From: a virus
Length of the DNA: 64,000 nucleotides
Virus record (IMG/VR): IMGVR_UViG_3300025096_000004
Span: 1 to 64,000 of that record
Reading direction: 5' to 3' (one strand)
The position numbers and the translations under genes are program-made. Each line of letters begins with the position of its first letter. Position 1 is the stretch's first letter. Shown here one piece after another: positions 8,043 through 22,660 of the stretch. Under the pieces are notes generated by a model. The model was not told where the DNA came from and searched no databases. It saw nothing but the letters and a program-made list of their open reading frames with translations.

Positions 8043-8216
8043 GTGAAAATCGGAGACACCGTTAGGATAAGACCTTCTGGTGAGGTGGGGGTAATTACGG
8101 AAAGTGTAGACCGTGTTATAGGAACACATGTAGACAAATTGCCAAGGTGGGTTGTCCACCTTGCTATAACAATGAGAAATCATATATTTTTAGAGAAGGA
8201 TTTAGAAATAATTTAA
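8043..8216 (+). CDS. MKVGDLV-family small SH3/KOW-like protein
   Basis: 57 aa from GTG 8043 (GGAGG 7 bases upstream). VKIGDTVRIRPSGEVGVIT is followed by WVVHLAITMRNHIFLEKDLEII, which is the family scheme of GD start, GVI strand, VxL strand and a C-terminal L-E-(V/I)-I. First compact member after the zinc-knuckle gene. Function unknown. Confidence 0.65.
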   Translation: MKIGDTVRIRPSGEVGVITESVDRVIGTHVDKLPRWVVHLAITMRNHIFLEKDLEII

Positions 8217-8238
8217 TACTCAGATGGAGGGGTATACA

Positions 8239-8373
8239 ATGAGCAGAATAGTAAAACGGGCAGTCGCCCTGTCCAGAAAAAATAGCGAATGGTATGCAGC
8301 CAGCAGCCAACCAAAACCATTAACCAAAGAGGTGAAAAATGAAAACAAAGAGATACAAAAGGGTCGTGTGTAA
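8239..8373 (+). CDS. Hypothetical basic peptide
   Basis: 44 aa from ATG 8239 behind GGAGGGG. Lys/Arg-rich (MSRIVKRAVALSRKNSEWYAA). Its 3' end overlaps the start of the next gene by 35 bases in another frame. No family recognised. Confidence 0.4.
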   Translation: MSRIVKRAVALSRKNSEWYAASSQPKPLTKEVKNENKEIQKGRV

Positions 8374-8665
8374 AGATGGGTTCTCAATGAGCGTTCAAGC
8401 TCATGATGGGGCTTATTGCGAACCAAGAATAGATAATGCAGCAAATTACACAGAGGTAGAAGTCGGCTATCCAACACAGATAGAAGAACTGCTCATGCCT
8501 TGGTGTGAAGACAAAGATAAGCCATGCAATACAGTCTATGGCTATGTCCCTGTCTTCACTGTTCACCTCGTTATAACAAAACATGGTGGTATGGTTGAGG
8601 GTGAGGTTCCAAACGGAGTGTTGCTTTATGATAAAGCCGGACAAAATCTGTCCTCGACAGGATGA
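8339..8665 (+). CDS. Conserved phage hypothetical protein
   Basis: 108 aa. The string GFSMSVQAHDGAYCEPR, then YTEVEVGYP and TVYGYVP with a C-terminal ITKHGG, fits a small protein widely seen in phages, though its function is unknown. ATG 8339 follows GAGGTGAAA. The last codons (AGQNLSSTG) read through the next operator, so that tail is probably not under functional constraint. Confidence 0.75.
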   Translation: MKTKRYKRVVCKDGFSMSVQAHDGAYCEPRIDNAANYTEVEVGYPTQIEELLMPWCEDKDKPCNTVYGYVPVFTVHLVITKHGGMVEGEVPNGVLLYDKAGQNLSSTG

Positions 8666-8681
8666 CGGAACAGGTTATAAT
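8639..8681 (+). promoter_or_regulatory. Operator-promoter module 3
   Basis: GGACA-aaatc-TGTCC (8639-8653), TCGACA (8654-8659), N16, TATAAT (8676-8681). It overlaps the end of the preceding gene and lies only 16 bases before ATG 8697. Confidence 0.8.
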
Positions 8682-8696
8682 GTAGGAGACTTAGTA

Positions 8697-8912
8697 ATGG
8701 TACACGGGGTTCACTTGGGTATCATTACTTTGTTTTATGCTCCCCGTGGATTGTGGGTAATAAGGCTTGCACATGACGGACAGGAACTTGCCCTATTTAG
8801 GGATGATTTTGAACCATTAAACTATATGGAGAACAATAATGGAAGAACAGATGACAATAATGGAAAAGTTAAGATATGTTCCCAAGGAGGGGGATGTGTT
8901 GATTTATCTTGA
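8697..8912 (+). CDS. MKVGDLV-family protein, start displaced by promoter
   Basis: 71 aa from ATG 8697 (AGGAGA upstream). In frame just before the ATG the sequence still reads N-V-G-D-L-V, but no start codon precedes it and the -10 box overlaps this stretch, so the canonical N-terminus seems lost. VHLGIITLFYAPRGLWVIRLAHDG matches the family core. The last 25 codons overlap the next gene, and the low-complexity NNNGRTDDNNG tail may be read-through of a lost stop. Confidence 0.5.
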   Translation: MVHGVHLGIITLFYAPRGLWVIRLAHDGQELALFRDDFEPLNYMENNNGRTDDNNGKVKICSQGGGCVDLS

Positions 8913-9084
8913 TGGGTCGCACTTGCAAATCAAAGAGATTAAGAAAACCCACGTTAAACTTGAAAAATCGGGAAGCGGTGAGGATCTTCCTTTGAAGCCC
9001 GTTGCTCACATTAGGTCAGATATGATTAAGAATGAGTGCTTCCTTTGCAGAAGAAAATTGGCGGCACCAAATGAAAACAGGTGA
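8839..9084 (+). CDS. Divergent SH3/KOW-like protein
   Basis: 81 aa from ATG 8839 (GGAGA upstream). VPKEGDVLIYLDGSHLQIKEI is a variant of the family start, and a CFLCRRK motif near the C-terminus adds a CxxC. It ends ...NENR with the 14-base overlap ATGAAAACAGGTGA into the next gene. Confidence 0.6.
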   Translation: MEEQMTIMEKLRYVPKEGDVLIYLDGSHLQIKEIKKTHVKLEKSGSGEDLPLKPVAHIRSDMIKNECFLCRRKLAAPNENR

Positions 9085-9241
9085 TTTGGTAAAAGTACAA
9101 GGACACTGCGTTGAAGAGTATGCCCTGTTGGTAGAAATTGGGGAAAAAGATGGTTGCAATTGGGTGCGGGTTCGCTATTTTGATGGTGAAGAGGAAGTGC
9201 TTCATCCAACACAGGTGAAAAGAGTTAGTGAAAGCAGGTGA
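9071..9241 (+). CDS. MKVGDLV-family small SH3/KOW-like protein
   Basis: 56 aa starting MKTGDLVKVQGHCVEEY. The core GCNWVRVRYFDGEEEVLHPTQV is almost the same as that of the gene at 10166, so these two are recent duplicates. The ATG lies inside the 3' end of the preceding gene and its stop lies in the start of the next. Confidence 0.75.
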   Translation: MKTGDLVKVQGHCVEEYALLVEIGEKDGCNWVRVRYFDGEEEVLHPTQVKRVSESR

Positions 9242-9446
9242 TTTGATATGCTTTGCTTTCAAACCCCCTTTGCGGAGGGTTCCCCCAATGGCAATAGTTG
9301 TCCATGCCTACAAGAGTCATGATTACCTCGAAGGACACGTTGAGGTTGTTTGGATAACTGGTTCGATGGCTGGACAAAGAAAGTGTTACCCCCCTTCAAA
9401 CTTGGTAAAAGTAAAACCGGACATTTTTTGTCCTTTACAACTTTAA
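9228..9446 (+). CDS. MKVGDLV-family small SH3/KOW-like protein
   Basis: 72 aa from GTG 9228, 14-base overlap with the previous member. MKAGDLICFAFK has a proline-rich insertion, then MAIVVHAYK and VEVVWITGSMAG. The last codons run into the operator at 9419, so the C-terminal PDIFCPLQL is read through regulatory DNA. Confidence 0.65.
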   Translation: MKAGDLICFAFKPPLRRVPPMAIVVHAYKSHDYLEGHVEVVWITGSMAGQRKCYPPSNLVKVKPDIFCPLQL

Positions 9447-9462
9447 GCAAATATGCTATATT
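9419..9462 (+). promoter_or_regulatory. Operator-promoter module 4 (variant -35)
   Basis: GGACA-ttttt-TGTCC (9419-9433) with -35 TTTACA (9434-9439), N17, TATATT (9457-9462). It is the only abutting module without TCGACA, and its spacer is 17 instead of 16. Confidence 0.75.
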
Positions 9463-9491
9463 ATATATGAACCCCAGAACAAGGAGTTAAC

Positions 9492-9824
9492 ATGGATGTT
9501 TGGGTAGTTATAGATAGATACGATCACAGTGAACACATTGTTACAGTTCACCTGACCGAAAAGGGTGCAATGATTCACACTTATGGTATTTTGCTTGAGT
9601 CTTATGATGGTATTTGTGATTCTGTCTGGGATGATAGCGAGGACGACGACTTCAAAGAAGAGTACCCCGATGCTTATGAGTTTGTTAAGAAGTATTGTGG
9701 AAACATCGAAGAGGCCAAGCTTGCCGATTTGAGCAAGCATCAAGTTGATTTGACCTGTTTTATTGGAAATGCTACCGACTGGTCAACCGATGTATCAATT
9801 GAACAAACACGGCTGCAAGCATGA
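9492..9824 (+). CDS. Hypothetical acidic protein
   Basis: 110 aa from ATG 9492 behind AAGGAG. It is acidic (WDDSEDDDFKEEYPDAYEF). N-terminal MDVWVVIDRYDHSEHIVTVHL reads as beta strands. No family recognised; the acidic surface could bind a basic partner or mimic DNA, which is speculative. The stop overlaps the next start by 4 bases. Confidence 0.6.
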   Translation: MDVWVVIDRYDHSEHIVTVHLTEKGAMIHTYGILLESYDGICDSVWDDSEDDDFKEEYPDAYEFVKKYCGNIEEAKLADLSKHQVDLTCFIGNATDWSTDVSIEQTRLQA

Positions 9825-9994
9825 AGGTCGGTGATTTAGTGAAACTGATACACAGCCTTTATGGTGGTTATGGCATCATTACCAATATAAGAGACTGGCC
9901 TAACAGTTCCTCCATCTGGTATACGGTTCACTGGCAAAACGGTGTAACACGGGAGACATACGAAGCTGATGAATTGGAGGCAGTATGCAAGTAG
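9821..9994 (+). CDS. MKVGDLV-family small SH3/KOW-like protein
   Basis: 57 aa, MKVGDLVKLIHSLYGGYGIITNI then IWYTVHWQNGVTRETYEADELEAV. Complete family scheme. ATG overlaps the preceding TGA. The stop TAG lies in the start region of the next gene (overlap 10). Confidence 0.7.
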   Translation: MKVGDLVKLIHSLYGGYGIITNIRDWPNSSSIWYTVHWQNGVTRETYEADELEAVCK

Positions 9995-10179
9995 GTGACT
10001 TAATCAAATGGACAGACTATAAAGGTGATACCCCCGTGGGGCATGTTGGCCTACTTATCAAAGACCTAAAGGACTATTGGTCAAACCCATCGGACTGGAA
10101 CGATTTCTACGTCCTTTGTGAAGGTCAGTATGTCTTTTGGACTTCATGGCAATGCGAGGTGTATAATGGAAGTAAATGA
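9985..10179 (+). CDS. MKVGDLV-family small SH3/KOW-like protein
   Basis: 64 aa, MQVGDLIKWTDYKGDTPVGHV. The body keeps GLLIKD and FYVLCEGQYVFW. It overlaps both neighbours by 10-14 bases. The C-terminus YNGSK departs from the usual LEVI ending. Confidence 0.7.
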   Translation: MQVGDLIKWTDYKGDTPVGHVGLLIKDLKDYWSNPSDWNDFYVLCEGQYVFWTSWQCEVYNGSK

Positions 10180-10357
10180 TTTAGTTAAGGTGCGAGGTCA
10201 CTGTGTTGAAGAGTACGCCCTCTTAATTGAAATAGAAGGAAAGAGCGGATGCAACTGGGTACGGGTGCGGTATTTTGACGGGGAGGAAGAGATACTTCAC
10301 CCAACCCAGATAACCCCAGTTAAGAAAACCGGACAAAATATGTCCTCGACAAGTTAA
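10166..10357 (+). CDS. MKVGDLV-family small SH3/KOW-like protein
   Basis: 63 aa from ATG 10166 (14-base overlap), MEVNDLVKVRGHCVEEYALL. It is nearly identical in its middle (GCNWVRVRYFDGEEE) to the protein at 9071. The last ten codons are encoded by the next operator and -35, showing that regulatory DNA was inserted at or replaced the gene end. Confidence 0.7.
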   Translation: MEVNDLVKVRGHCVEEYALLIEIEGKSGCNWVRVRYFDGEEEILHPTQITPVKKTGQNMSSTS

Positions 10358-10373: not shown

Positions 10374-10401
10374 ATAAGCATAACCCAAGCAGAGGTGACT
10401 T

Positions 10402-10605
10402 ATGAAAGTCGGTGATTTAATTGGTATCGGATGGAGCGGAGTGTGGAAACAGCCTTTTGTAGCAGTGATAAGAGAGGTACACTGTTTCCGAAAACACATG
10501 ACCAAAAAAGGCGAAATCAGTGGTTATACTGTTTTCATTCCAGCTACAGGAAAAGAAACATTCATAACCCCAAGAGATGTGAGGAGTCTAAATGAAGATA
10601 GGTGA
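10402..10605 (+). CDS. MKVGDLV-family small SH3/KOW-like protein
   Basis: 67 aa, MKVGDLIGIGWSGVWKQ, first gene after module 5. FVAVIREVH and GYTVFIPATGKETFI provide the strands. It ends NEDR with the 14-base overlap into the next member. Confidence 0.7.
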   Translation: MKVGDLIGIGWSGVWKQPFVAVIREVHCFRKHMTKKGEISGYTVFIPATGKETFITPRDVRSLNEDR

Positions 10606-10759
10606 TTTAATAAAATACAAACATCGTTACATAGGGGAGCAATTTGTAGTTGTGGGTATCCGCAATTTCGGTAAAGCTGCCGCTGTGAAGTGCATATCAG
10701 CCAAAACCCTGAAAAAAACCAGATGGTCTTGTTCATCAACTGTTGAGGTACTCGCATGA
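10592..10759 (+). CDS. MKVGDLV-family small SH3/KOW-like protein
   Basis: 55 aa, MKIGDLIKYKHRYIGEQFVVVGI, very basic (Lys/Arg in KTLKKTRW). It ends TVEVLA, with its TGA overlapping the next ATG by 4 bases. Start fixed by the conserved overlap sequence. Confidence 0.7.
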   Translation: MKIGDLIKYKHRYIGEQFVVVGIRNFGKAAAVKCISAKTLKKTRWSCSSTVEVLA

Positions 10760-10977
10760 AAAAGAATAAGTTCAAGATAGGTGATTTGATAACGATGTCT
10801 GCTGCTGGTCGCAATCTGTCGAGCAATTGGGCGTACAAAGGGGAAATGGGCATCATTGTCCAGATAATGTCAAATGTTGAGAACCCTTATCAAATACGAT
10901 GGATTCGATCAAAGTGGCGAAGAGCAGCTTGGTACAAGCAATATGAGCTAAAGTTTGTCAAACCGGACAAAAAATGA
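10756..10977 (+). CDS. MKVGDLV-family small SH3/KOW-like protein
   Basis: 73 aa, MKKNKFKIGDLITMSAAGRN, four residues longer at the N-terminus than typical members. MGIIVQIM and YQIRWIRSKWRRAAW follow, giving a strongly basic core. The C-terminus runs into module 6. Confidence 0.7.
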   Translation: MKKNKFKIGDLITMSAAGRNLSSNWAYKGEMGIIVQIMSNVENPYQIRWIRSKWRRAAWYKQYELKFVKPDKK

Positions 10978-11037: not shown

Positions 11038-11853
11038 ATGCAATGTGGATATTGTTACAATTACGGACACAACAAAATGGGATGCCCTAAAGCAAAAGAA
11101 AGGGCTGCTACCATCCTACCCCAGTGGGAGCAGTGGCAGAAGATGGAGCATGACAACGACTATGTCAAAACCTCGACATATAAAGCTGCTCGTCACTTTG
11201 AATGGGAATACAAATATCGCGAAGCTCTTGATATACATCTTCAAAAGCAGAAGCGCAGCACAAAAGTTAAGGTTTGCAATTTCTGCGGTCAATCCGGCCA
11301 CAACAAAAGAACCTGCCAAGAGCTTAAAGACTTTAAGGGCGAAATAAAACAAGCAACCATCGCCTATAGAAAGACCGTCATCAATGCTATCTCCGAAACT
11401 GGACAGGGCATTGGCAGCATGTTTACGGGTGAATATTCACATTGGAATCGTCATAAGGGCGAATATGATGAGGGAAAGCAGGGCATCGCTTTGGTTACTG
11501 GTATCAAGTGGCACTTGATTAACTTGGTTGATGTTCGGGAGCATGGAGAAATCAGCCTCAATCGCAGTGTCAGTGAACCTATTTTTGAAGTTAGATGGAC
11601 TCATGGTTTCGTTGAGTCTCATGTTCCGTTTGTCAATTATAGTATTGACAACCAGTCAGTACTAAGTGTCAGTTGGAGAGGCTCAGATAAAAAACTACTT
11701 GCCCCCTCTAAAACTGTAACCCCACCCGACGGTTGGGCAACTTGCGATGATTCGCTTTCCCAACGTCATTTGTCCAAAGTTCTTTCTGGTCGCAAGTCTC
11801 AAAGAAAGAACCAGCTTGAGTACTTTCGAGGAAAAATGAACCAGTGGAAGTAA
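11038..11853 (+). CDS. Double CCHC zinc-knuckle protein, paralogue 2
   Basis: 271 aa, starting directly with the first knuckle CGYCYNYGHNKMGC (residues 3-16) and carrying a second, CNFCGQSGHNKRTC, at about 79-92. The C-terminal domain LKDFKGEIKQATIAYRK aligns with MKKFRNKLYKANTNWRK (7028 gene) and MKTFLVEAYQANENWRR (15588 gene), and a G-Q-G-(I/A) turn follows in each. Likely nucleic-acid binding by established knuckle chemistry; target unknown. Own operator-promoter upstream and another directly downstream. Confidence 0.8.
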   Translation: MQCGYCYNYGHNKMGCPKAKERAATILPQWEQWQKMEHDNDYVKTSTYKAARHFEWEYKYREALDIHLQKQKRSTKVKVCNFCGQSGHNKRTCQELKDFKGEIKQATIAYRKTVINAISETGQGIGSMFTGEYSHWNRHKGEYDEGKQGIALVTGIKWHLINLVDVREHGEISLNRSVSEPIFEVRWTHGFVESHVPFVNYSIDNQSVLSVSWRGSDKKLLAPSKTVTPPDGWATCDDSLSQRHLSKVLSGRKSQRKNQLEYFRGKMNQWK

Positions 11854-12811: not shown

Positions 12812-13192
12812 ATGGCTTATTTAAAACCAAACATGACAGTATTCATGGCCAACAACGGCCAGCCCATCTATTCAACAATTGAGAAGATTGCCTTCCGCAA
12901 GTATTGGGGAAAGAAGCGAGACAAGAAAACAGGACTGATGAAAAAAGCAAGAAAATCAATGCCTTATGCGATTTGTACTGTTAAAATGTCATCTGATACC
13001 GACATACCCACGGGGGCGCAATTCACAATCGCTGGCTATCAGCTTCGCAACGTGATTATGAAAGGTGAGAAAATCCTGACCTTCGACCAAAAGTATGTGG
13101 CAGACTTCGCCCAAGAGTACGGTAACAAGTGGGTCAGACGCATGATTATTGAAGAGTTCAAGCATGATGGTGATGACAATGAAAGTCGGTGA
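12812..13192 (+). CDS. Hypothetical protein, head of a small-gene chain
   Basis: 126 aa behind AAGGAG. Basic, with MAYLKPNMTVFMANNGQP, then a Lys/Arg segment (RKYWGKKRDKKTGLMKKARK) and GAQFTIAGYQLRNVIMKG. No family recognised. It ends DDNESR through the 14-base overlap, so it feeds ribosomes into the MKVGDLV chain behind it. Confidence 0.65.
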   Translation: MAYLKPNMTVFMANNGQPIYSTIEKIAFRKYWGKKRDKKTGLMKKARKSMPYAICTVKMSSDTDIPTGAQFTIAGYQLRNVIMKGEKILTFDQKYVADFAQEYGNKWVRRMIIEEFKHDGDDNESR

Positions 13193-13364
13193 TTTGATAA
13201 AAGATAAGATGAGCGAACAAGTCGGCATCATTGTGGCCACCAAGATGGTAAATAATGGGTCTGCCCCCGCCGGTGAACTTGAGCCATATCACCGATGCTT
13301 GGTTGGCAAGGATTACATTTGGTTTTTTGAGATTTCATTGGAGGTCATCAATGAAAATCGGTGA
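13179..13364 (+). CDS. MKVGDLV-family small SH3/KOW-like protein
   Basis: 61 aa, MKVGDLIKDKMSEQVGIIVA; body ends FFEISLEVINENR. First of six members in one unbroken overlapping chain (13179-14197). ATG fixed by the shared ATGAAAGTCGGTGA overlap with the upstream gene. Confidence 0.75.
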   Translation: MKVGDLIKDKMSEQVGIIVATKMVNNGSAPAGELEPYHRCLVGKDYIWFFEISLEVINENR

Positions 13365-13551
13365 TGCAGTAAGAATAACAACAGAGTTTGGGCAATACTG
13401 GCATTATACTGTGGAGATTTCTGGCATGGTCGGAATACTCCTTCGTCTCAATCGAGGGAATGACCAAGCTGAAGTTTATCTTTCCAATGGACAGACCTGT
13501 AAAATTAGTTGCCCCCATGCTTGGTTGGAGGTGTTAAATGAAAGTAGGTGA
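13351..13551 (+). CDS. MKVGDLV-family small SH3/KOW-like protein
   Basis: 66 aa, MKIGDAVRITTEFGQYWHY. VGILLRLNRG and QAEVYLSNGQTCKI provide the strands, and WLEVLNESR closes it. 14-base overlap on both sides. Confidence 0.75.
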   Translation: MKIGDAVRITTEFGQYWHYTVEISGMVGILLRLNRGNDQAEVYLSNGQTCKISCPHAWLEVLNESR

Positions 13552-13714
13552 TTTGGTAAACGTAAGAGACTATGGAGTCGGTGTCATTGCTGATTTTACT
13601 TGGGAGTTTGTTCAGGATGTGCCGTATAAATGGGCTTCCATCTGGTTGATTGCTCAAGAACGCCTAATTTTTACTTCAATTACTTTAGTCGAGGTCATCA
13701 ATGAAAATCGGTGA
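13538..13714 (+). CDS. MKVGDLV-family small SH3/KOW-like protein
   Basis: 58 aa, MKVGDLVNVRDYGVGVIADF, then WASIWLIAQERLIF and LVEVINENR. Same 14-base overlaps. Hydrophobic and aromatic core richer than in its neighbours. Confidence 0.72.
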   Translation: MKVGDLVNVRDYGVGVIADFTWEFVQDVPYKWASIWLIAQERLIFTSITLVEVINENR

Positions 13715-13886
13715 TTTAATTATACGAAAATACGATGGTATGTTAGCCATAGTTATCAACACAGACAGGCTTCACACTGGCCTCGTCACGGTGCAGTACT
13801 ACGCAGTACCCAAAGAAGCTGAATACGGTGGCTGGCACTGTGATGACCTTGCGTCAAGCTGGAGGCTTCAAGATGAAAGTCGGTGA
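13701..13886 (+). CDS. MKVGDLV-family small SH3/KOW-like protein
   Basis: 61 aa, MKIGDLIIRKYDGMLAIVIN, then LVTVQYYAVPKEAEYGGW. It ends RLQDESR; the usual LEV is replaced, but the overlap with the next ATG is kept. Confidence 0.72.
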   Translation: MKIGDLIIRKYDGMLAIVINTDRLHTGLVTVQYYAVPKEAEYGGWHCDDLASSWRLQDESR

Positions 13887-14028
13887 TTTGGTAAGAGATA
13901 CGCAATTCAATGATGTCGGTGTCGTTGTTGAAATTGATGAAGGGGAGAACCTATATAAAATAATATTCCCCAACAGCATGGAATGGCTAACAGATGCTTA
14001 CATCGAGGTGATAAGTGAAAGTAGGTGA
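13873..14028 (+). CDS. MKVGDLV-family small SH3/KOW-like protein
   Basis: 51 aa, one of the shortest members: MKVGDLVRDTQFNDVGVVVEI, LYKIIFPNSMEWL, YIEVISESR. It shows the minimal fold: start strand, GVVVEI strand, third strand, C-terminal IEVI. Confidence 0.75.
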   Translation: MKVGDLVRDTQFNDVGVVVEIDEGENLYKIIFPNSMEWLTDAYIEVISESR

Positions 14029-14197
14029 CTTGGTCAAGTGGACAGCACCGCATCCCCACCCTGAAGACTGCATTATCGGTCTTGTCGAAGCGGTTTGCGA
14101 TAGATATATCTATGTGCGGTGGGCAGATGGCACACTCGATGAATATGAGGTTGAAGACTGGAAATCTAAACGTCTTGATTTGGAGGTGATAAGTTAA
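14015..14197 (+). CDS. MKVGDLV-family small SH3/KOW-like protein
   Basis: 60 aa from GTG 14015 in the 14-base overlap. MKVGDLVKWTAPHPHPEDC is followed by YIYVRWADGTLDEYEVEDW, and it ends LEVIS. It resembles the 17257 gene in the proline and Glu-Asp-Cys-rich first loop, suggesting a copied pair. Last gene of this chain. Confidence 0.75.
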   Translation: MKVGDLVKWTAPHPHPEDCIIGLVEAVCDRYIYVRWADGTLDEYEVEDWKSKRLDLEVIS

Positions 14198-14201
14198 GAC
14201 C

Positions 14202-14244
14202 GGACAGAATATGTCCTCGACAATTCAACCAAACAGGTTACATT
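14202..14244 (+). promoter_or_regulatory. Operator-promoter module 9
   Basis: GGACA-gaata-TGTCC (14202-14216), TCGACA, N16, TACATT (14239-14244). Drives the chain 14275-15513. Confidence 0.85.
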
Positions 14245-14274
14245 ATATACATCACTCAGACAATGGAGGTCACA

Positions 14275-14496
14275 ATGAAAAAAGGTGACTTAATCAGAAA
14301 CAAAAACGATGGCGAGTTCGCCATAATCCTTTCAACCTATACCAAGTTCTTTCAGGACTCCAACTACTCCGGTGAGCATGACTATGGGGTGGCCGACACC
14401 GCTGTCCGTATCAAGTGGATTGAAGGAGGTCATGAGCATACCTTTCAGAGGTCAAAGATGCGTCGAAATTGGGAGGTTCTCAATGAAAGTCGGTGA
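14275..14496 (+). CDS. MKVGDLV-family small SH3/KOW-like protein
   Basis: 73 aa, MKKGDLIRNKNDGEFAIILS from ATG 14275 (GGAGG upstream; the ATG at 14263 overlaps that site). TAVRIKWIEGGHEHTF gives the third strand. It ends WEVLNESR with the 14-base overlap. Heads a seven-gene chain. Confidence 0.75.
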   Translation: MKKGDLIRNKNDGEFAIILSTYTKFFQDSNYSGEHDYGVADTAVRIKWIEGGHEHTFQRSKMRRNWEVLNESR

Positions 14497-14656
14497 TTTA
14501 GTAAAGGTTAGGGGCATTAGCCAGAAGAGGTTGGGGCTTGTGGTTGAGATCCCACCCCATGATGACTATTGGGGAGATACTGCTGTTGTAGAATGGCTTT
14601 GTGGCTTTAGAGAAGAGCTAACCCAAGATAGAGTGGAGGTTGTATCATGCAAGTAG
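14483..14656 (+). CDS. MKVGDLV-family small SH3/KOW-like protein
   Basis: 57 aa, MKVGDLVKVRGISQKRLGLV, then TAVVEWLCGFREEL and VEVVSCK. 14-base overlap upstream, 10-base overlap downstream (ATGCAAGTAG). Confidence 0.75.
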   Translation: MKVGDLVKVRGISQKRLGLVVEIPPHDDYWGDTAVVEWLCGFREELTQDRVEVVSCK

Positions 14657-14859
14657 GCGATTTAGTTAAGTTCCGCTATATCTATAGCGGTTGTGACTTG
14701 AACGATAAAAAAGCCCTGTACTTGGGTGAAGCTTTCATCCATCGGAATGATGGTATCGTCGTTGAGAATCATAAGATTCTTGAGATTGGAGCCACAAAGC
14801 CAACAATCGTCGATTCTGGTTTGCTCAAGTACATGGAGGTTATCAATGAAAGTCGGTGA
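14647..14859 (+). CDS. MKVGDLV-family small SH3/KOW-like protein
   Basis: 70 aa, MQVGDLVKFRYIYSGCDLND, with a longer middle (DGIVVENHKILEIGATKP). Ends YMEVINESR. Overlaps both neighbours. Confidence 0.73.
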   Translation: MQVGDLVKFRYIYSGCDLNDKKALYLGEAFIHRNDGIVVENHKILEIGATKPTIVDSGLLKYMEVINESR

Positions 14860-14995
14860 TTTAGTTAAAGACCAGCACGGCAACACCGGAATCATTACAA
14901 AGGGATACTGGGGAAACCATAAACATTGGTGGGTTCATTGGACTCATGGCGGCTCAAATACAATCCACGAACGATGGTTGGAGGTGATAGCATGA
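14846..14995 (+). CDS. MKVGDLV-family small SH3/KOW-like protein
   Basis: 49 aa, the shortest member: MKVGDLVKDQHGNTGIITKG, HWWVHWTHGGSNTI, WLEVIA. Stop and next ATG overlap as ATGA. Confidence 0.73.
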   Translation: MKVGDLVKDQHGNTGIITKGYWGNHKHWWVHWTHGGSNTIHERWLEVIA

Positions 14996-15156
14996 AAGTC
15001 GGTGATTTAGCAATGACCCACAGGGGCAACCTTTGCGTTGTGGTCGAGGTCGGCAAAAACATTTGGGGTCGAATCGACTGGTACAACATTGTTTTCAGTT
15101 CTTCTGGATACCTACGCACCGGATACCCTGCCCACTGGCTACGGAGGCACCGATGA
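14992..15156 (+). CDS. MKVGDLV-family small SH3/KOW-like protein
   Basis: 54 aa, MKVGDLAMTHRGNLCVVVEV, GRIDWYNIVFSSSGYL, ending HWLRRHR. Basic C-terminus replaces the LEVI ending. 4-base overlaps on both sides. Confidence 0.72.
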   Translation: MKVGDLAMTHRGNLCVVVEVGKNIWGRIDWYNIVFSSSGYLRTGYPAHWLRRHR

Positions 15157-15359
15157 AAGTAGGTGATTTAGTAAGATTTACCGACAAAGGAACATATTCA
15201 AAATGGTTCTATTGCAGATATGCAAAGATTGAGAGTGTGAGCAAATGCAAAGCACATCTTCGTGTAAGATGGATTTTTCCTGTGAAATATTATGATAGAT
15301 GGACAACAATATCTGACTTTGGCGCAGATAAGTTTGAGGTCATCAATGAAGGTCGGTGA
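15153..15359 (+). CDS. MKVGDLV-family small SH3/KOW-like protein
   Basis: 68 aa, MKVGDLVRFTDKGTYSKWFY; strongly basic middle (KIESVSKCKAHLRVRWIFPVKY). Ends FEVINEGR with the 14-base overlap. Confidence 0.73.
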   Translation: MKVGDLVRFTDKGTYSKWFYCRYAKIESVSKCKAHLRVRWIFPVKYYDRWTTISDFGADKFEVINEGR

Positions 15360-15513
15360 TTTGATAAGGTCAAAAATGAATAATGGACTTCTTGGCATCA
15401 TTAAGGAAGCCTATGACTCTCCGAAGGGATTGTGGATAATCCATTGGATGGACGGTGGAACCTTTCATTCAGGGTCTTTGGCTCATGAGAACAATTTTGA
15501 GGTAATAAGTTAA
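15346..15513 (+). CDS. MKVGDLV-family small SH3/KOW-like protein
   Basis: 55 aa, MKVGDLIRSKMNNGLLGIIK, WIIHWMDGGTFHS, FEVIS. Last gene of the second chain; its stop is 2 bases before module 10. Confidence 0.74.
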   Translation: MKVGDLIRSKMNNGLLGIIKEAYDSPKGLWIIHWMDGGTFHSGSLAHENNFEVIS

Positions 15514-15587: not shown

Positions 15588-16421
15588 ATGAACATATTTG
15601 AAAACAACGGAAGTGGCCGAAGCACATCAGCTTGCGGCTATTGCAGAACCACCGGACACGACATTAGGGACTGCCCACAGGTTCCCAAAGATTATGCCTA
15701 TTGGAAAGACTACAAAGTACCGCTTCAAGCTGGCAATCCCTGTCGCTGGTTCGCTGCTAATCAGCCCAAGTACTGGGGCGAGTGGTACACCAAGTGCATC
15801 AACGCCATGCACAGACAGCTTGAATATCAAAAGAAGAAGAACCAACCAAAAGTTAAGCGCACCTCTTATCCTCGTTCTTGCGGCTTCTGCGGTGAACTTG
15901 GACATACCCGTCGAAAGTGTCAGAAGATGAAGACCTTCTTGGTCGAAGCTTATCAAGCCAATGAGAACTGGCGACGAAAAGCCTATGAAGCTTTGGTCAA
16001 CAATCTTGGTATTTCTGTCGGTGCTGCTATAAAAGTTAAGAAAAGTGCTGGGTATCACTACGGTGCAGAGGCAACAGAGCATGTAGCCTTGGTGTCTTCG
16101 GTCAATTGGGATAAGTTAAACCTGTCCTGTGCCAATCAAACATGGGAAGACCAGTGGAGACAGCACCTCAGTGTGGAAGTCCTTCTCAACGGTCAAACCC
16201 TCACACTAAGGTTTGCAGACAGACTGCTTGAACCTGTTTTCCGTCACATTTCTGGCTATAGTGGTGTCACTTATCTTGATAAGGTCGCCCCTGCTCCAAA
16301 GCCCCTTGATGAGTCTTGGGTCACTGACTACAAAGAAGCTTTCGACTTCATCGCAAAGAAGCGCAGCTATGAAAGGCTTGAGCAAGCGGGTATCGTCGCT
16401 CTTGTCGAGAAGTGGAAATAA
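15588..16421 (+). CDS. Double CCHC zinc-knuckle protein, paralogue 3
   Basis: 277 aa. Knuckles CGYCRTTGHDIRDC (about residues 17-30) and CGFCGELGHTRRKC (about 99-112), followed by the shared MKTFLVEAYQANENWRR domain and a C-terminal region present in all three paralogues. The inter-knuckle linker is aromatic (YWKDYK, YWGEWY) unlike the basic one in paralogue 1. All three genes head their own operator-promoter, spaced about 4 kb apart. Nucleic-acid binding is inferred from the knuckles. Confidence 0.8.
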   Translation: MNIFENNGSGRSTSACGYCRTTGHDIRDCPQVPKDYAYWKDYKVPLQAGNPCRWFAANQPKYWGEWYTKCINAMHRQLEYQKKKNQPKVKRTSYPRSCGFCGELGHTRRKCQKMKTFLVEAYQANENWRRKAYEALVNNLGISVGAAIKVKKSAGYHYGAEATEHVALVSSVNWDKLNLSCANQTWEDQWRQHLSVEVLLNGQTLTLRFADRLLEPVFRHISGYSGVTYLDKVAPAPKPLDESWVTDYKEAFDFIAKKRSYERLEQAGIVALVEKWK

Positions 16422-16495: not shown

Positions 16496-17257
16496 ATGAC
16501 AGCAAAACAACAACAACTTGCCCTCATCCAAAAAACCATCGAAGCTGCCGACAAGCTTGGCAACAAAAGGGATGTTTACACTCTGGGTTCTCTCCTGCGC
16601 TATCGACAAAAGCGAAAGCTGTCCCACCGTCAGGAAGACTTCTTAAAGAAGCTAATCCAGCGCAACGATGAGTCTGCATTGAAGGCACTGGCTGATAAAA
16701 ATGCAGAGTGGGAGCGTGAATGGCGAAGCAACGATGAATTGAGGGCAAAGGCCGAGGTCATTGCAAATTATTATTTGACCACGACCTACTATAATGTACC
16801 TGCTCGAAAGGTCATTCAATGGCGCAAGATTGAAAGCTTTACAGCCCACTCAGAAGAAGAGAAGAGCGAGTTGTATGCAGACTGTCTCCCTCCGAAGCGT
16901 CAGGTTTTGAGAATGGTTAACAACAAGTATGCTGAGAACGTATGGCAAAGCCACAATGCCGAGCCTAAATGGAAGGTCGGTGACATGGTAGCTATCCGCA
17001 AGTCTTATAAAGGAACCCTTAACCTTGGAAACAAAATCGCCACAAGCCATTGGCATGGCAAACAAGGTTTCCCGATGTTCGATGAATTGAGCTATTTGAT
17101 TGTAGCAGTGGATTCAAAGCCAATCAGTGAGTCTCTCAAGTACGACAAGAGCCGAGGTGGTTGCAGATATTACAAACTGCTACCCGTAGGCTACCCTACC
17201 CCCGTGGATGTCATGGAGTGTAACCTAAAGAAGCTTCTCAAAAAACAGGTGAGCTAA
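16496..17257 (+). CDS. Hypothetical protein with C-terminal GD-x-V segment
   Basis: 253 aa from ATG 16496; the frame is open upstream through the promoter but ATG 16412 would precede it. N-terminal helical region (TAKQQQLALIQKTIEAADKLG, SHRQEDFLKKLI), middle QRNDESALKALADKNAEWERE. The C-terminal third begins WKVGDMVAIRKSYKG and continues YLIVAVDSKP, so a KOW/SH3-like module is fused to a helical domain. This may show the ancestral context of the small paralogues. Stop overlaps the next MKVGN start (TAATG). Confidence 0.7.
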   Translation: MTAKQQQLALIQKTIEAADKLGNKRDVYTLGSLLRYRQKRKLSHRQEDFLKKLIQRNDESALKALADKNAEWEREWRSNDELRAKAEVIANYYLTTTYYNVPARKVIQWRKIESFTAHSEEEKSELYADCLPPKRQVLRMVNNKYAENVWQSHNAEPKWKVGDMVAIRKSYKGTLNLGNKIATSHWHGKQGFPMFDELSYLIVAVDSKPISESLKYDKSRGGCRYYKLLPVGYPTPVDVMECNLKKLLKKQVS

Positions 17258-17451
17258 TGAAAGTCGGTAATTTAGTTACATGGTCGGAACCCTCCCCGTA
17301 CCCCGAACAATGTCAGCTTGGTGTGATTATAACAATCGAAGCTTGTACGATTTGTCCAGAAGACCAGTACGTCCAGATTCAATGGGCAGATGAGGAGAAA
17401 GGCAGCAGCAGGTCATGGGAACAAGTCCAAGACATAAAGGTGATAGCATGA
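17257..17451 (+). CDS. MKVGDLV-family small SH3/KOW-like protein
   Basis: 64 aa, MKVGNLVTWSEPSPYPEQCQ, YVQIQWADEEKGSS, ending IKVIA. The first loop resembles that of the 14015 gene. 4-base overlap with the next gene. Confidence 0.73.
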   Translation: MKVGNLVTWSEPSPYPEQCQLGVIITIEACTICPEDQYVQIQWADEEKGSSRSWEQVQDIKVIA

Positions 17452-17657
17452 AAGTCGGTGATTTAGTTAAATACAAGACAACTGGTGACATGGGCTTGAT
17501 TATTCGGATGGAGACAAAGCCAGCTTTGCCAACCGATAGAGAATGGGTTTATGTGGCATGGATAGGCCAAGAAGGTCAAGCCACTCGATGGCGATGGGGT
17601 CGAGAACTCTCAGGGTATCCCAAAGCAGACTTGGAGGTCATCAATGAAGGTCGGTGA
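17448..17657 (+). CDS. MKVGDLV-family small SH3/KOW-like protein
   Basis: 69 aa, MKVGDLVKYKTTGDMGLIIR, WVYVAWIGQEGQATRWRW, ending LEVINEGR with the 14-base overlap. Trp/Arg-rich third strand. Confidence 0.74.
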   Translation: MKVGDLVKYKTTGDMGLIIRMETKPALPTDREWVYVAWIGQEGQATRWRWGRELSGYPKADLEVINEGR

Positions 17658-17823
17658 CTTGGTTAAAATCGAAACTTATCGCAACAGTGGCGACATTGAA
17701 GCAATTGGAATACTTTTGAAATACGATCTCGTCCGAGCGCGAGCCACTGTTCATGTTACTGATGGAACCCAGCAAAATGTTCCAGTCGGTCTGATTTCGA
17801 GGTATCGTAATGAAAGTCGGTGA
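17644..17823 (+). CDS. MKVGDLV-family small SH3/KOW-like protein
   Basis: 59 aa, MKVGDLVKIETYRNSGDIEA, ATVHVTDGTQQNVPV, ending RYRNESR. 14-base overlap with both neighbours. Confidence 0.72.
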   Translation: MKVGDLVKIETYRNSGDIEAIGILLKYDLVRARATVHVTDGTQQNVPVGLISRYRNESR

Positions 17824-17989
17824 TTTGGTATCAGCCCCGAAGAGTCAATTTGATGACTTTGACATGAAGCAGTTCTTTGGTTTGGTTGTCTGGACGGATG
17901 GCTACAAGGTCACTCTTCTTGTCGATGGGCTGGAAGAAACATGGACAACCTTTGACCTCAAAGCGATAGGCGCAAAGGTCATAAGTTAA
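17810..17989 (+). CDS. MKVGDLV-family small SH3/KOW-like protein
   Basis: 59 aa, MKVGDLVSAPKSQFDDFDMK, FGLVVWTDGYKVTLLVDG, ending AKVIS. Acidic first loop. Last of the chain; stop 3 bases before module 12. Confidence 0.72.
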   Translation: MKVGDLVSAPKSQFDDFDMKQFFGLVVWTDGYKVTLLVDGLEETWTTFDLKAIGAKVIS

Positions 17990-18337: not shown

Positions 18338-19396
18338 ATGGCAGTAGATTTTAAAACATTCCTCTCAGTCGTTCCTCACATCGTCGCAGCACGATTCCCA
18401 ATCCTTACCCGAGGCCGCCACGGTATCGGGAAATCCACTGTGGTTTATCAGCTTGCAGACAGCATGGGTCTTCCAGTTGTCGAGCGTCGAGCTTCACAGA
18501 TGACCGAAGGTGACCTCTTGGGTCTGCCGAAGGTCGAAGGTAATATCACAAAGTGGCTTGCTCCAGAGTGGCTCCATGAAGCTTGTAATAAGCCTGTAGT
18601 CCTCTTCCTCGATGAAGTTGACCGAGCGACGATGGAAGTCCGACAGGGCATCTTTGAGCTTTGCGATTCTCGTAAAATCGCTGGCTATGAGCTTCATCCA
18701 GATACCATCATCTTTGCTGCCGTCAACGGTGGACAGCATGGAGCGCAGTACCAAGTCGGTGAAATGGATCCAGCGGAGCTTGACCGTTACACTGTCTTTG
18801 ACCTTGAGCCTTCAATTGAAGATTGGCTGATTTGGGCTAAAGACAACGTAGTTCAAGAGATTTGGGACTTCATCAACCATAATCATGGTCACTTGGAGCA
18901 CAACGATGACTATGAACCTAACAAGGTTTATCCTTCTCGTCGCTCTTGGGAACGTCTTTCTAAGACCTTGACCTCGATGGGGAAGGACATCGAATCCTCT
19001 CCGGTTCTCTATCAGCTTGCCTGTGCTTTCATCGGCTTTGAAGGTGCTGTAGCTTTCAATGACTTCATGAAGAACTATGAACGTCAAGTCACTATCGAGA
19101 ACATCCTTGATGAAGGTAAGCTTGAATTGACCAAAGATTGGAAAATCAATGACCATAACTCTCTTATCGAGAAGTTCAAGGCCAAAGAGGTTTTCAATGA
19201 GAAGCTCGATGACAATCGTTTGCAGAACCTTGCAAACTACTTTGTCACCCTTCCTTCTGAGATTGCCATGACCCTTTGGCAAGTAATGGGAACCACCGAG
19301 TTCGCCACCTACAACGTGGCAAAGCTCCACAACCTCACTGCTTCTTGTGGAACCGTTGTTCAAGACTTCATCGTCGAAATCTTGACCGCAAAATAA
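18338..19396 (+). CDS. MoxR-type AAA+ ATPase
   Basis: 352 aa. Walker A GRHGIGKST (residues 26-34), Walker B LFLDEVDRA (89-97), then a sensor-like AAVNGGQHG segment. The pattern ASQMTEGDLLGLP after the first helix is typical of the MoxR/CbbQ branch. Such ATPases act as chaperones that remodel target complexes with a VWA-domain partner, and the next gene encodes exactly such a partner. Each has its own operator-promoter, implying coordinate control. The C-terminal lid is helical. Confidence 0.88.
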   Translation: MAVDFKTFLSVVPHIVAARFPILTRGRHGIGKSTVVYQLADSMGLPVVERRASQMTEGDLLGLPKVEGNITKWLAPEWLHEACNKPVVLFLDEVDRATMEVRQGIFELCDSRKIAGYELHPDTIIFAAVNGGQHGAQYQVGEMDPAELDRYTVFDLEPSIEDWLIWAKDNVVQEIWDFINHNHGHLEHNDDYEPNKVYPSRRSWERLSKTLTSMGKDIESSPVLYQLACAFIGFEGAVAFNDFMKNYERQVTIENILDEGKLELTKDWKINDHNSLIEKFKAKEVFNEKLDDNRLQNLANYFVTLPSEIAMTLWQVMGTTEFATYNVAKLHNLTASCGTVVQDFIVEILTAK

Positions 19397-19474: not shown

Positions 19475-20650
19475 ATGGCTTTTGATTTAGATAAACACAC
19501 TTGGCGACTCCTTCAGAATGAGCCTTTCTTTGCCGCTCTCTCTCGTCGCATCCACAAGACACCGACAACAGCTATTCCAACCGCTGGTGTTAAGTTAAAC
19601 CCTGAGACTGCACAGTTTGAAATGATTTACAATCCTGAGTTCTTTGAGAAGCTGGAAGATAATCATAAGCTTGGAGTCTTGATGCACGAATACTATCACA
19701 TCATCTTTGAGCATGTCACTGGTCGCTTGCCACCGGAAGGCATGAACATGATGTGGAATATTGCGACTGACCTTGCAATCAATTCACACCTCAAAGGCAT
19801 GTTACCCGAAGGGTGCTGTATGCCCGAACAAGACCGTTTTGAAGAGTATCCTTCTGGCAAGTCTGCTGAGTGGTACTATTCAAAGCTACTCAAAGAGCAA
19901 GATGAAGAAGACCAAGACGGCAAAGGCGAAGGTGAAGGGTCAGGCAAAGGCGACCTTTCAGACCAGCAATTCGACAGTCATGAAGGATGGGGCGAAGCTG
20001 ATGAAGATACAAAGCAGATGGCTAAAGAGCGATTGCGTCAAGCAGTCGAAGACTCAGCCAAAGAAGCGCAGAATAAAGGCTCTTGGGGTACAATGTCATC
20101 CGGTATGCGAAAGAAGATTATGGATATGATTACTCCGAAGGTCGATTGGCGCAAGGTTCTTCGATATTTCATCAAAACCTCGCAACGTGCCAACAAGCGC
20201 AGCACAGTTCGACGCATCAACAAGCGTTTTCCTTACATCCACGCTGGAAAGAAGGTACAACGTCAGGCGAAGATAGCTATCTCCATCGACCAGTCAGGCT
20301 CAGTCTCTGACAAGATGCTTGCTGCGTTCTTTGCCGAGCTTAACACTTTGGCGAAGCTTGCCGAGTTCACTGTCATTCCCTTCGATACCGAAGTAGCCGA
20401 AGATAAGGTCTATGTCTGGAAAAAGAACCAGAACAAGCCTTGGGAACGTGTCCTTTGCGGTGGAACCTGTTTCGATGCTCCGACAAAGTATGTCAACAAG
20501 GGAAGCTTTGATGGTCATATCGTCTTAACCGACATGTGCGCTCCAAAGCCTGTTTCTTCCAAGTGCCAGCGCATGTGGATGACAGACAACGAAAACGCTC
20601 GAAATCCGTACTTTACAACCAATGAACGGGTTATAGCCATAGAAGCCTAA
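19475..20650 (+). CDS. VWA-like / putative metallopeptidase partner of MoxR ATPase
   Basis: 391 aa. The N-terminal domain carries LMHEYYHIIFEH (HExxH at residues 71-75) and IATDLAIN, the layout of DUF2201-type putative metallopeptidase domains. A Gly/Glu/Asp-rich linker (about 150-175) follows. The C-terminal VWA-like domain has AISIDQSGSVSD (MIDAS DxSGS), a Thr in GGTCFD and IVLTDMCA. MoxR and VWA pairs are a known system type, used to activate or assemble metalloenzymes and other complexes; the target here is unknown. Confidence 0.85.
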   Translation: MAFDLDKHTWRLLQNEPFFAALSRRIHKTPTTAIPTAGVKLNPETAQFEMIYNPEFFEKLEDNHKLGVLMHEYYHIIFEHVTGRLPPEGMNMMWNIATDLAINSHLKGMLPEGCCMPEQDRFEEYPSGKSAEWYYSKLLKEQDEEDQDGKGEGEGSGKGDLSDQQFDSHEGWGEADEDTKQMAKERLRQAVEDSAKEAQNKGSWGTMSSGMRKKIMDMITPKVDWRKVLRYFIKTSQRANKRSTVRRINKRFPYIHAGKKVQRQAKIAISIDQSGSVSDKMLAAFFAELNTLAKLAEFTVIPFDTEVAEDKVYVWKKNQNKPWERVLCGGTCFDAPTKYVNKGSFDGHIVLTDMCAPKPVSSKCQRMWMTDNENARNPYFTTNERVIAIEA

Positions 20651-20664
20651 ACAATGGCCTATTC

Positions 20665-20726: not shown

Positions 20727-20764
20727 CACAAACCAATCAATTACAACCAAACAATGGAGACTCT

Positions 20765-21058: not shown

Positions 21059-21060
21059 AC

Positions 21061-21103
21061 GGACATTTTCTGTCCTCGACAATAGTCGAGGATAGGTTAT
21101 ATT
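21061..21103 (+). promoter_or_regulatory. Operator-promoter module 15 with second dyad
   Basis: GGACA-ttttc-TGTCC (21061-21075), TCGACA, N16, TATATT (21098-21103). CCTCGAC-aata-GTCGAGG overlaps the -35, as in module 14. Confidence 0.85.
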
Positions 21104-21174
21104 ATATATGTTAAACCCTTTCAGCGGATTCAATTTATGATTCTTTCACTTCTCACATATCTGGAGACACTATT

Positions 21175-21405
21175 ATGCAAAATCTTATTCTTACTCGCCT
21201 CGTTGACGGCTCCAAAGCCGTTATCACCCATTGGGATCACTTTTATGTTAATCGCTCTACTGGTTCCACAATCGACAGGGCTTTTACAATCAAATACCTC
21301 GATGGAGACTATGAAGGTCAAAGCCACTGTTGGTCAATCCACAGTCTTCACACGCTATTCCACATCGTCGGAAAGAACGAGGTCAGCAATGACAAAATCT
21401 CCTAA
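21175..21405 (+). CDS. Hypothetical small protein
   Basis: 76 aa from ATG 21175 behind TGGAGAC. MQNLILTRLVDGSKAVITHW, AFTIKYLDGDYEGQ; beta-rich and possibly a distant SH3/KOW-like fold (IKYLDG strand). A longer frame starting at 21137 covers the same DNA but lacks a ribosome-binding site and is read as a shadow. Overlaps the next start by 17 bases. Confidence 0.6.
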   Translation: MQNLILTRLVDGSKAVITHWDHFYVNRSTGSTIDRAFTIKYLDGDYEGQSHCWSIHSLHTLFHIVGKNEVSNDKIS

Positions 21406-21733
21406 GTGTGCATATAAACAAGGCGACCTTGTGAACAAGGCAGGGCAAATGGGCATCGTCACCAACACCGACGATACTTTTTACACCTTTCAGTTGCTTG
21501 GCAGTCAACCCATTACTCATACCACGATGAACATCACAGTTAGACACTATCTCAAACTGGTCAAGGCTCAAGAACAGATTACAACTGGCAGGGGCGTTTC
21601 AAGTGACTTCGTTGTAAGGAACCTAACCTTAGAAGAAGAGCTTCTTGAAGGCGACCCACAACCGCTAATCACAGGCAAAGTCAACCGACATGCCGAGAAC
21701 ACTTTAAATAAGTTAAGTCAAGGAGAAGTATAA
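21389..21733 (+). CDS. SH3/KOW-like protein with C-terminal extension
   Basis: 114 aa from ATG 21389 within the preceding gene's end. YKQGDLVNKAGQMGIVTNTDDTFYTFQL follows the family scheme in residues 9-50. An extra 55 residues (TGRGVSSDFVVRNLTLEEELLEG) follow, absent from the short paralogues. Stop overlaps the next start (TAATG). Confidence 0.6.
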   Translation: MTKSPKCAYKQGDLVNKAGQMGIVTNTDDTFYTFQLLGSQPITHTTMNITVRHYLKLVKAQEQITTGRGVSSDFVVRNLTLEEELLEGDPQPLITGKVNRHAENTLNKLSQGEV

Positions 21734-21954
21734 TGAACAGGTTCAATAGAAGCAGAAGAAAGCAAGTCGAAACCTATGAAGTGGGAGCTTTAGTAGAGTA
21801 TCGTTGTGACCCATCTGGAATGGAACCCTTTGACCTGCTGGCTATAGTCTTAGAGTATATGCCCAAAGAGGGCTATTACCTTATTAGGTTCATGGATGAT
21901 GGCTCTACTCTACATTGTGTCCATTCAGAGATATGCCGACCGGAGGCAGTATGA
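21733..21954 (+). CDS. SH3/KOW-like protein with basic N-terminus
   Basis: 73 aa. The basic N-terminus MNRFNRSRRKQ is followed by YEVGALVEYRCDPSGMEP, LAIVLEYMPKEGYYLIRFMDDGSTL. The strand order of the family is kept, with VGALVE for VGDLVK. 4-base overlap to the next member. Confidence 0.65.
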   Translation: MNRFNRSRRKQVETYEVGALVEYRCDPSGMEPFDLLAIVLEYMPKEGYYLIRFMDDGSTLHCVHSEICRPEAV

Positions 21955-22151
21955 AGATAGGAAGCTTGGTAAGGTTCAACCCACCGCTTGGAGCATCCGA
22001 ATTGGGTGAACTGTTCATGGTTATTGGGAAGCGTCCAGCAATTTCGCTGAAGAGCGGAGGCGCATGTCCGGAAGCTGTGAAGTGTGTATCGGTTAAGACC
22101 GGAAAGAAAACCCCGTTCGTTCGCACCACTCGCCTCAGTGTGTACGCATGA
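21951..22151 (+). CDS. MKVGDLV-family small SH3/KOW-like protein
   Basis: 66 aa, MKIGSLVRFNPPLGASELGE, MVIGKRPAISLKSGG, ending LSVYA. ATGA overlaps at both ends. Confidence 0.68.
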   Translation: MKIGSLVRFNPPLGASELGELFMVIGKRPAISLKSGGACPEAVKCVSVKTGKKTPFVRTTRLSVYA

Positions 22152-22315
22152 AGGTGGGTGATTTGGTTAGGCCGTGGAAAGCACAACGAGCAATCGGTCT
22201 TGTGGTCGAGGTCATAAATAAAAAAGAAGTAAAGGTTCAATGGATAGGAAAGAAGAATCAATTGATGTATGCCTATCAGAAACATAAGTTAGAGGTGATT
22301 AATGAAAGTAGGTGA
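22148..22315 (+). CDS. MKVGDLV-family small SH3/KOW-like protein
   Basis: 55 aa, MKVGDLVRPWKAQRAIGLVV, EVINKKEVKVQWIGKKNQL, ending LEVINESR with the 14-base overlap. Compact and highly basic. Confidence 0.74.
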   Translation: MKVGDLVRPWKAQRAIGLVVEVINKKEVKVQWIGKKNQLMYAYQKHKLEVINESR

Positions 22316-22490
22316 CTTGGTAAGGTATGTAAGGGGAGAAGCAGCCAAAGGTTTCGATATGAATGTGATTGGTCTGGTTATCAATGTAGGGAATGACCCA
22401 CTAAGAAACAATAGACCATCTGCTCGTATCCACTGGTTGAATGACTCATGGTCTGTGGAAGCACAGAAGATATTGGAGGTGCTTGCATGA
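22302..22490 (+). CDS. MKVGDLV-family small SH3/KOW-like protein
   Basis: 62 aa, MKVGDLVRYVRGEAAKGFDM, IGLVINVGND, ARIHWLNDSWSVEA, ending LEVLA. 14-base overlap upstream, 4-base overlap downstream. Confidence 0.74.
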   Translation: MKVGDLVRYVRGEAAKGFDMNVIGLVINVGNDPLRNNRPSARIHWLNDSWSVEAQKILEVLA

Positions 22491-22660
22491 AAGTAGGTGA
22501 CCTTCTTCGGAGCAAAGACACTGGTCTTATTTGCATAATAAAGAGGATAGAAAAGCCCAAGGAAAGAGGCGGTGTAACTTTATTCTTTTTAGACTGTCAG
22601 TCAATTGTCTGTGGCTATTGGAGTAGGGAAGTGATAACTGATTTTTATCATTTGACCTGA
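22487..22660 (+). CDS. MKVGDLV-family small SH3/KOW-like protein, last of the series
   Basis: 57 aa, MKVGDLLRSKDTGLICIIKR, VTLFFLDCQSIVCGYW. The C-terminus differs (ITDFYHLT). After its stop the DNA changes to a 900-base stretch without clear genes. Confidence 0.7.
   Translation: MKVGDLLRSKDTGLICIIKRIEKPKERGGVTLFFLDCQSIVCGYWSREVITDFYHLT

Follow-up and report, generated by a model that had tools for sequence, protein, structure and literature searches.

A junction-linked array of small predicted SH3/KOW-fold cassettes in a large marine phage, a possible library of host-protein binders

Positions 8043 to 22660 of the DNA analyzed here (the window: bases 1–64,000 of the 191,495-bp uncultured phage record IMGVR_UViG_3300025096_000004 from IMG/VR) hold a tandem array of small genes encoding proteins of one family. 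Neighbouring genes are linked by a common junction, in which a Shine-Dalgarno sequence and the overlapping stop and start codons fall within a few tens of nucleotides (nt). Judged from comparison with related phages, the array is a shuffled common pool of old paralogues under protein-level constraint, not the product of recent local duplication. From this anatomy we infer a host-takeover or counter-defence library of single-fold host-protein binders, a reading to which we give an even chance.

The small-protein family and its predicted fold

A preliminary description of this DNA had proposed a tandem family of small proteins at 8.0–22.7 kb. Motif and profile searches confirmed it, with frames intact. 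An exact M[KQE][VIK]G[DN]L-type start was found in 25 open reading frames, all on the plus strand and none on the minus strand. A profile built from 24 window members had 28 matches along the full 191,495-bp record, every one within 8.0–22.7 kb and free of internal stops; iterated over related phages, it raised membership at 8043–22660 to about 32. More than 900 distinct members were collected, almost none of which fall in any known family. Their wide divergence at conserved length agrees with what was first described. Absence from relatives together with frameshifts was not seen: the family occurs in nearly all related phages, with no broken copies. Across 110 loci (1.6 Mb) its genes lie almost wholly on one strand. 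On the complement strand of one locus (L100), a protein of 153 amino acids (aa) is a natural fusion of two family barrels.

Relatives had also been proposed outside the main run or within larger genes. Those at 1251, 5676, 16496, 33537 and 41958 were at noise level by family profile (E 0.16–2.1; Z=1000 for these outliers), and the KVGDM stretch of the 16496 protein, taken to be a C-terminal family domain, was not significant. The gene at 6206 is marginal (E 0.008), and 56824 received weak support (E 0.002). Family members of the array are as follows.

8043–8216, plus strand: SH3-like cassette, GTG start (motif, profile)
8583–8912, plus strand: probable member, true start unclear, with promoter 8639 within its 5' end (profile E 8e-4)
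9071–9241, plus strand: SH3-like cassette, close paralogue of 10166 (profile)
9228–9446, plus strand: SH3-like cassette, GTG start, overlapping the 9071 gene by 14 nt (profile E 3e-5)
9821–9994, plus strand: SH3-like cassette, best profile match
9985–10179, plus strand: divergent SH3-like cassette, second structure prediction (profile, model)
10166–10357, plus strand: SH3-like cassette (profile)
10402–10605, plus strand: SH3-like cassette, first gene of its operon (motif, profile)
10592–10759, plus strand: SH3-like cassette, 14-nt overlap (profile, overlap)
10756–10977, plus strand: SH3-like cassette, 4-nt overlap (profile, overlap)
13179–15513, plus strand: 13 SH3-like cassettes in two operons, starting at 13179, 13351, 13538, 13701, 13873, 14015, 14275, 14483, 14647, 14846, 14992, 15153 and 15346 (motif, profile, overlap)
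17257–17989, plus strand: four SH3-like cassettes, starting at 17257, 17448, 17644 and 17810 (motif, profile, overlap)
21733–22660, plus strand: five SH3-like cassettes, starting at 21733, 21951, 22148 (first structure prediction), 22302 and 22487 (profile)

The −10 element of promoter copy 8639 (see below) lies inside the YNVGDLV codons of the 8583–8912 member, which may therefore be newly truncated or start downstream.

Alignment of 100 members gave a glycine/hydrophobic core pattern, with the loops most variable. AlphaFold2 predicted a five-stranded barrel for 22148–22315 (predicted local distance difference test, pLDDT, 91.0; predicted template modelling score, pTM, 0.75) and again for the divergent member 9985–10179 (pLDDT 83.5, pTM 0.66). 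The two predictions did not disagree, and the SH3/KOW-like fold proposed at the outset is upheld. In Foldseek searches the 22148 model matched KOW domains of Spt5 and NusG, ribosomal eL14 and the MutS2 SH3 domain (TMq 0.7–0.8), and the 9985 model matched generic SH3, Tudor and ribosomal barrels (TMq ~0.5–0.7). The best E value was ~0.01, so these matches speak for a fold class and not for homology. Among sequence-profile matches in PDB, the NusG KOW domain ranked first (E 0.0026). On these models, the family members appear to be single-domain SH3/KOW-fold proteins.

Known families were matched poorly. Pfam KOW (PF00467) did not reach its curated cut-off, with one of 100 members at E 0.005 and the rest giving nothing at E 0.01; none of 10 window members matched it. 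DUF4314, DUF2158, DUF1918 and DUF2098 likewise stayed below their cut-offs (best E 0.0018–0.005, one or two of 100 members each), as did DUF1918 and DUF2098 among the 10 window members. No PHROG family was matched by most members, the most for any one being three of 100 (best E 2.3e-5). We know of no arrays formed by these four DUF families.

Gene junctions and cassette exchange

Junctions between adjacent family genes were compared across about 100 related loci, counting distinct junctions. Overlaps are quantised, with 14 nt in 310, 10 nt in 80 and 4 nt in 64, and any other spacing in at most five each. In the 14-nt class the upstream stop is the TGA within the next gene's GGTGAT, and Gly4 is encoded by GGT in 311/311; the upstream protein consequently ends in ...NESR or SESR. 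The 10-nt class uses the TAG within the next gene's GTA-G, with Val3 encoded by GTA in 48/48 and residue 2 being Q or R in 77/83. In the 4-nt class (ATGA), residue 2 is K in 64/67. The M(K/Q) alternation is thus largely due to the reading-frame relation between overlapping genes.

A similar double use was found at the other end of the gene. The codons of the terminal LEVI read (TT)GGAGGTNAT, which is a strong Shine-Dalgarno sequence correctly spaced from the next start. Of 314 coupled genes, 307 use GAG for the terminal Glu, compared with 44% GAG among the other Glu codons of these genes. The last strand is also conserved as protein, so the LEV(I) sequence serves two purposes. Terminal LEVI and the M(K/Q) start, both listed in the preliminary description as family hallmarks, are therefore real features, but in part they reflect constraint on DNA, namely the Shine-Dalgarno sequence and the fixed 14/10/4-nt overlaps. 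Each cassette ends in a Shine-Dalgarno sequence doubling as codons of the last β-strand (LEV), with its stop within the next cassette's start (ATGAAAGTCGGTGAT). This 20–30 nt junction would be a translation signal and a shared repeat at once. Recombination there would insert, delete or swap whole cassettes between related phages, and every gene would stay in frame and translatable.

When tandem runs of related phages were compared, DNA homology blocks ended between −20 and +30 nt of a family start codon in 98% of cases on the left and 92% on the right; breakpoints spread uniformly would give 33%. Individual events were also seen. Loci L055 and L056, whose DNA is 97% identical, are told apart by a single cassette; across a shared GTCGGTGATTT, the L056 junction joins parts of the two L055 junctions. 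L078 and L082 likewise show a single-cassette indel, one ~200-bp stretch whose two flanks have 15 nt in common. L039 and L070, with MoxR 76% identical, have a common 363-bp block at 99% identity, which is displaced by ~8 kb between the two loci and has a different cassette after it in each. These events argue for recombination beyond the block-end statistic. As in gene-cassette arrays, the units that come, go or change place at a common junction are single cassettes.

The set of cassettes turns over far more quickly than the anchor genes alongside. Reciprocal best hits of at least 50% identity were found for 30% of array members between phages with MoxR 85–98% identical and for 5% where MoxR was 65–75% identical. 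The ratio of nonsynonymous to synonymous substitution (dN/dS) was ~0.22 for orthologues and ~0.07 for MoxR, with dS near saturation and dN truncated by the identity threshold. Positive selection as the driver was rejected at the level of the gene average by this ratio. Within a genome the best paralogue match had a median core identity of 23%, and only 1.5% of members reached at least 50%. In other genomes 31% had a match of at least 50%, and matches of at least 60% were displaced by a median of 1.4 kb relative to MoxR. Recent tandem duplication was accordingly rejected as the main process, with 9071/10166 as an exception that looks like one recent paralogue pair. The preliminary proposal of repeated duplication and diversification does not hold as a recent process; exchange at junctions fits better. 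Copy number was 2–29 in sixteen relatives of 150–205 kb, and 9–29 in most of them.

Promoters, neighbouring genes and the phage

The array is divided into operons preceded by a locus-specific promoter and dyad, GGACAnnnnnTGTCC-TCGACA-N16/17-TATATT. Pattern search gave 15 forward copies (6.8–21.1 kb), no reverse copy, none with a reversed-pattern control and none elsewhere in the record.

6778–6830, plus strand: promoter/dyad, copy 1 of 15 (pattern search, alignment)
7791, 8639, 9419, 10331, 10965, 11857, 12740, 14202, 15516, 16424, 17993, 18246, 19402 and 21061, plus strand: the other 14 copies

The copies stand ahead of 15 operons here, among them the MoxR and DUF2201 operons. The imperfect dyad GGACAnnnnnTGTCC stands directly upstream of the −35 element in all 15, CTCGACAAnnGTCGAG is also present in several, and a regulator from the phage or its host could use the dyad as an operator. 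In the same region, several other lineages carry repeated motifs of their own that contain TTGACA or TATATT. By their motifs, the promoters are sigma70-like, host-type and strong-looking. Counts of the T4 late promoter TATAAATA were no higher than those of a reversed control and hence silent on timing.

In about 70 related loci the array encloses the genes for MoxR and the DUF2201 protein. Gene neighbourhoods were counted in 69 non-redundant related loci found through MoxR, for which MoxR is present in 69/69 by construction.

7028–7822, plus strand: two-CCHC zinc-knuckle protein, paralogue 1
11038–11853, plus strand: two-CCHC zinc-knuckle protein, paralogue 2
15588–16421, plus strand: two-CCHC zinc-knuckle protein, paralogue 3 (family in 58/69 loci)
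16496–17257, plus strand: conserved array gene of unassigned function (48/69 loci)
18338–19396, plus strand: MoxR-type AAA+ ATPase, the locus anchor (Pfam AAA_5; 69/69 loci)
19475–20650, plus strand: DUF2201 metallopeptidase plus VWA protein, the MoxR partner (Pfam PF13203/PF09967; 64/69 loci)

An origin of the zinc-knuckle proteins as fusions of the small family was unsupported, with only weak matches. The MoxR AAA+ and VWA genes are adjacent, as in MoxR-vWA pairs. When the small family alone served as query, MoxR turned up in 7/7 larger contigs, one of them distant (MoxR 39% identical, 293 kb). PHROG 1314 labels 19475–20650 'HNH endonuclease', whereas Pfam assigns a DUF2201 metallopeptidase and VWA; the PHROG label looks wrong. 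A ClpS-like adaptor at 2703–3023 (PHROG 27368, E 1.8e-21) is another protease-related gene close to the array.

The record is a large marine virus of bacteria, T4-like by its Gp23 capsid gene, which lies far from the array at 134.7–136.4 kb. By tblastn, the nearest cultured Gp23 phages are ~43% identical in the capsid, for example Flavobacterium phage immuto and Microcystis phage Mel-JY01. Searches of 50,697 phage records by megablast with the first 25 kb, by tblastn with a single family member and by blastn with the capsid region gave no match, and a family consensus protein gave two matches to phage records, both at chance level. Among cellular genomes (85k), 38 stretches with MKVGDLV[KR] were found and none was confirmed as a homologue. 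Elsewhere in the window, phosphate-permease-like (3888–4862), glutamine-synthetase-like (55721–56824) and PhoH-like (52264–53613) genes and a sugar/glycosyltransferase cluster (57166–63640) read as host-type metabolic genes carried by the phage. Otherwise unrelated proteins at 27179, 29171, 32566, 33252, 38682, 41049 and 47110 have a common short N-terminal leader of the MKLxxExWRxxLxE or MKLxxEQLxxIIKEE type, perhaps a virion-targeting or cleavage signal. Two large proteins at 30359–32569 and 33837–36110 (736 and 757 aa) are alike in layout, with a basic MKIxIRK start, and are possible paralogues.

Possible functions and known systems

We hypothesize that the barrels are expressed during cell takeover from host-type promoters, in operons whose cassettes would mostly be translationally coupled. 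The variable loops of each barrel would bind a different host protein and neutralise or redirect it, and frequency-dependent selection by variable hosts would drive cassette turnover. The arsenal of inhibitors suggested in the preliminary description is a plausible role. We prefer this binder library because the genes are small and clustered, share strong-looking promoters, turn over and are under purifying selection, a combination that fits takeover or anti-defence genes. Anti-defence genes with common conserved early regulatory sequences have been reported (PMC11065993), and as in the SPO1 takeover module, the small genes here are clustered in operons with their own promoters. Several points weigh against the proposal. 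No family member matches a known inhibitor, and promoter timing is inferred from sequence only. The gene-average dN/dS gives no overall sign of positive selection, with dS near saturation. For the cassette exchange itself, gene-specific rates, together with alignments that run on through the conserved junction, could account in part for block ends at gene borders, and the recombination events seen directly are few.

The barrels may instead act on nucleic acid or on host transcription or translation machinery as KOW factors (T4 MotB- or NusG-like), with variants tuned to sites or hosts. The leading structural matches (KOW, Spt5, NusG, eL14 and the MutS2 SH3 domain) and the NusG profile match speak for this, as does T4 MotB, a DNA-binding protein with a predicted N-terminal KOW domain (PMC7827196). 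However, net charges are centred on zero (5–95% range −8 to +6; median isoelectric point 6.2), unlike a uniform DNA-binding set, and this centring and wide range speak against one common nucleic-acid role. Conserved columns are those of the core and those encoded by the junction, K/R at position 8 is the only conserved basic surface residue, and the Pfam KOW motif was matched by a single member in 100. We consider such a role somewhat unlikely; the same scatter of charge weakens the earlier, narrower idea of RNA polymerase- or ribosome-linked KOW targets. The barrels could also be adaptors that steer the MoxR ATPase and the DUF2201 metallopeptidase-VWA protein to host (or phage) proteins. This would account for the linkage to MoxR and DUF2201, which was also seen from the family side and at 39% MoxR identity, and for the promoter motif common to these genes and the cassettes; an SPO1 takeover protein is an adaptor-like ClpCP modulator (PMC6873191). 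Yet the contigs may all be one phage clade, so that the linkage may be inherited, and a published survey infers that the MoxR-vWA-peptidase pair of phages works in virion assembly (PMC7824862). We regard adaptors as unlikely. A combined proposal is decidedly unlikely: an integrase-free combinatorial binder library, with the junction as recombination site, ribosome-binding site and start/stop overlap, whose binders are interchangeable adaptors directing the MoxR/metallopeptidase-VWA machine to host proteins for removal.

High turnover and recombination at a junction repeat would also arise without selection for content, and the array might then be a near-neutral by-product, with the repeated junction promoting gain and loss of small genes of little individual importance. 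The lack of broken copies, the dN/dS of ~0.22 and the copy number held at 9–29 in most relatives of 150–205 kb make this very unlikely. The virion-assembly role proposed for the MoxR-vWA pair would suit family proteins that form part of the virion or take part in its assembly. Structural genes do not resemble the array in its locus-specific sigma70-like promoters, its extreme turnover or its variable copy number, and the capsid gene is far away, making this highly improbable. If the members are instead host-targeting binders, as we favour, each phage would come equipped with a set of natural mini-binders aimed at bacterial machinery. A junction that unites homology for recombination, a ribosome-binding site and the overlap of genes would explain how the library is reshuffled without gene breakage. 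It would also give cassettes a simple way to evolve that needs no integrase and is open to direct test.

The array resembles several known systems in part. Its predicted fold is that of KOW/SH3-like domains (NusG, Spt5, eL14, MutS2 MSSS and the T4 MotB N-terminal domain), but the array proteins are stand-alone at ~60 aa, match below Pfam cut-offs and have no uniform basic charge. Single members are weakly alike by profile to the small SH3-like DUF4314, DUF2158, DUF1918 and DUF2098, under curated cut-offs where shown. The host takeover module of Bacillus phage SPO1 is likewise a cluster of ~26 mostly small genes in several operons, with the promoters and ribosome sites of highly expressed genes; its products and targets are varied and not of one fold, and the available part of its description mentions no shared cassette junction (PMC6873191). 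Bacillus phage G has a comparably large lineage-specific expansion of one small phage protein, a zinc ribbon in ~35 copies, but of a different fold and, in the available part of that survey, without report of a junction or cassette exchange (PMC7824862). In integron gene-cassette arrays, too, small promoterless genes stand head-to-tail, and a common junction is where they are gained, lost or put in a new order (PMC1382264). Unlike in integrons, the junction here is a Shine-Dalgarno/start overlap and not attC, although no search aimed at attC or an integrase was made; genes overlapping by 4–14 nt leave no room for a separate attC element. The cassettes here are mostly of one protein family. A targeted search of the open-access literature found no description of a single-fold cassette array with a junction uniting recombination homology, Shine-Dalgarno sequence and start/stop overlap, an absence that is not proof. 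Taken separately, phage takeover clusters, expansions of paralogues and arrays of cassettes are already known.

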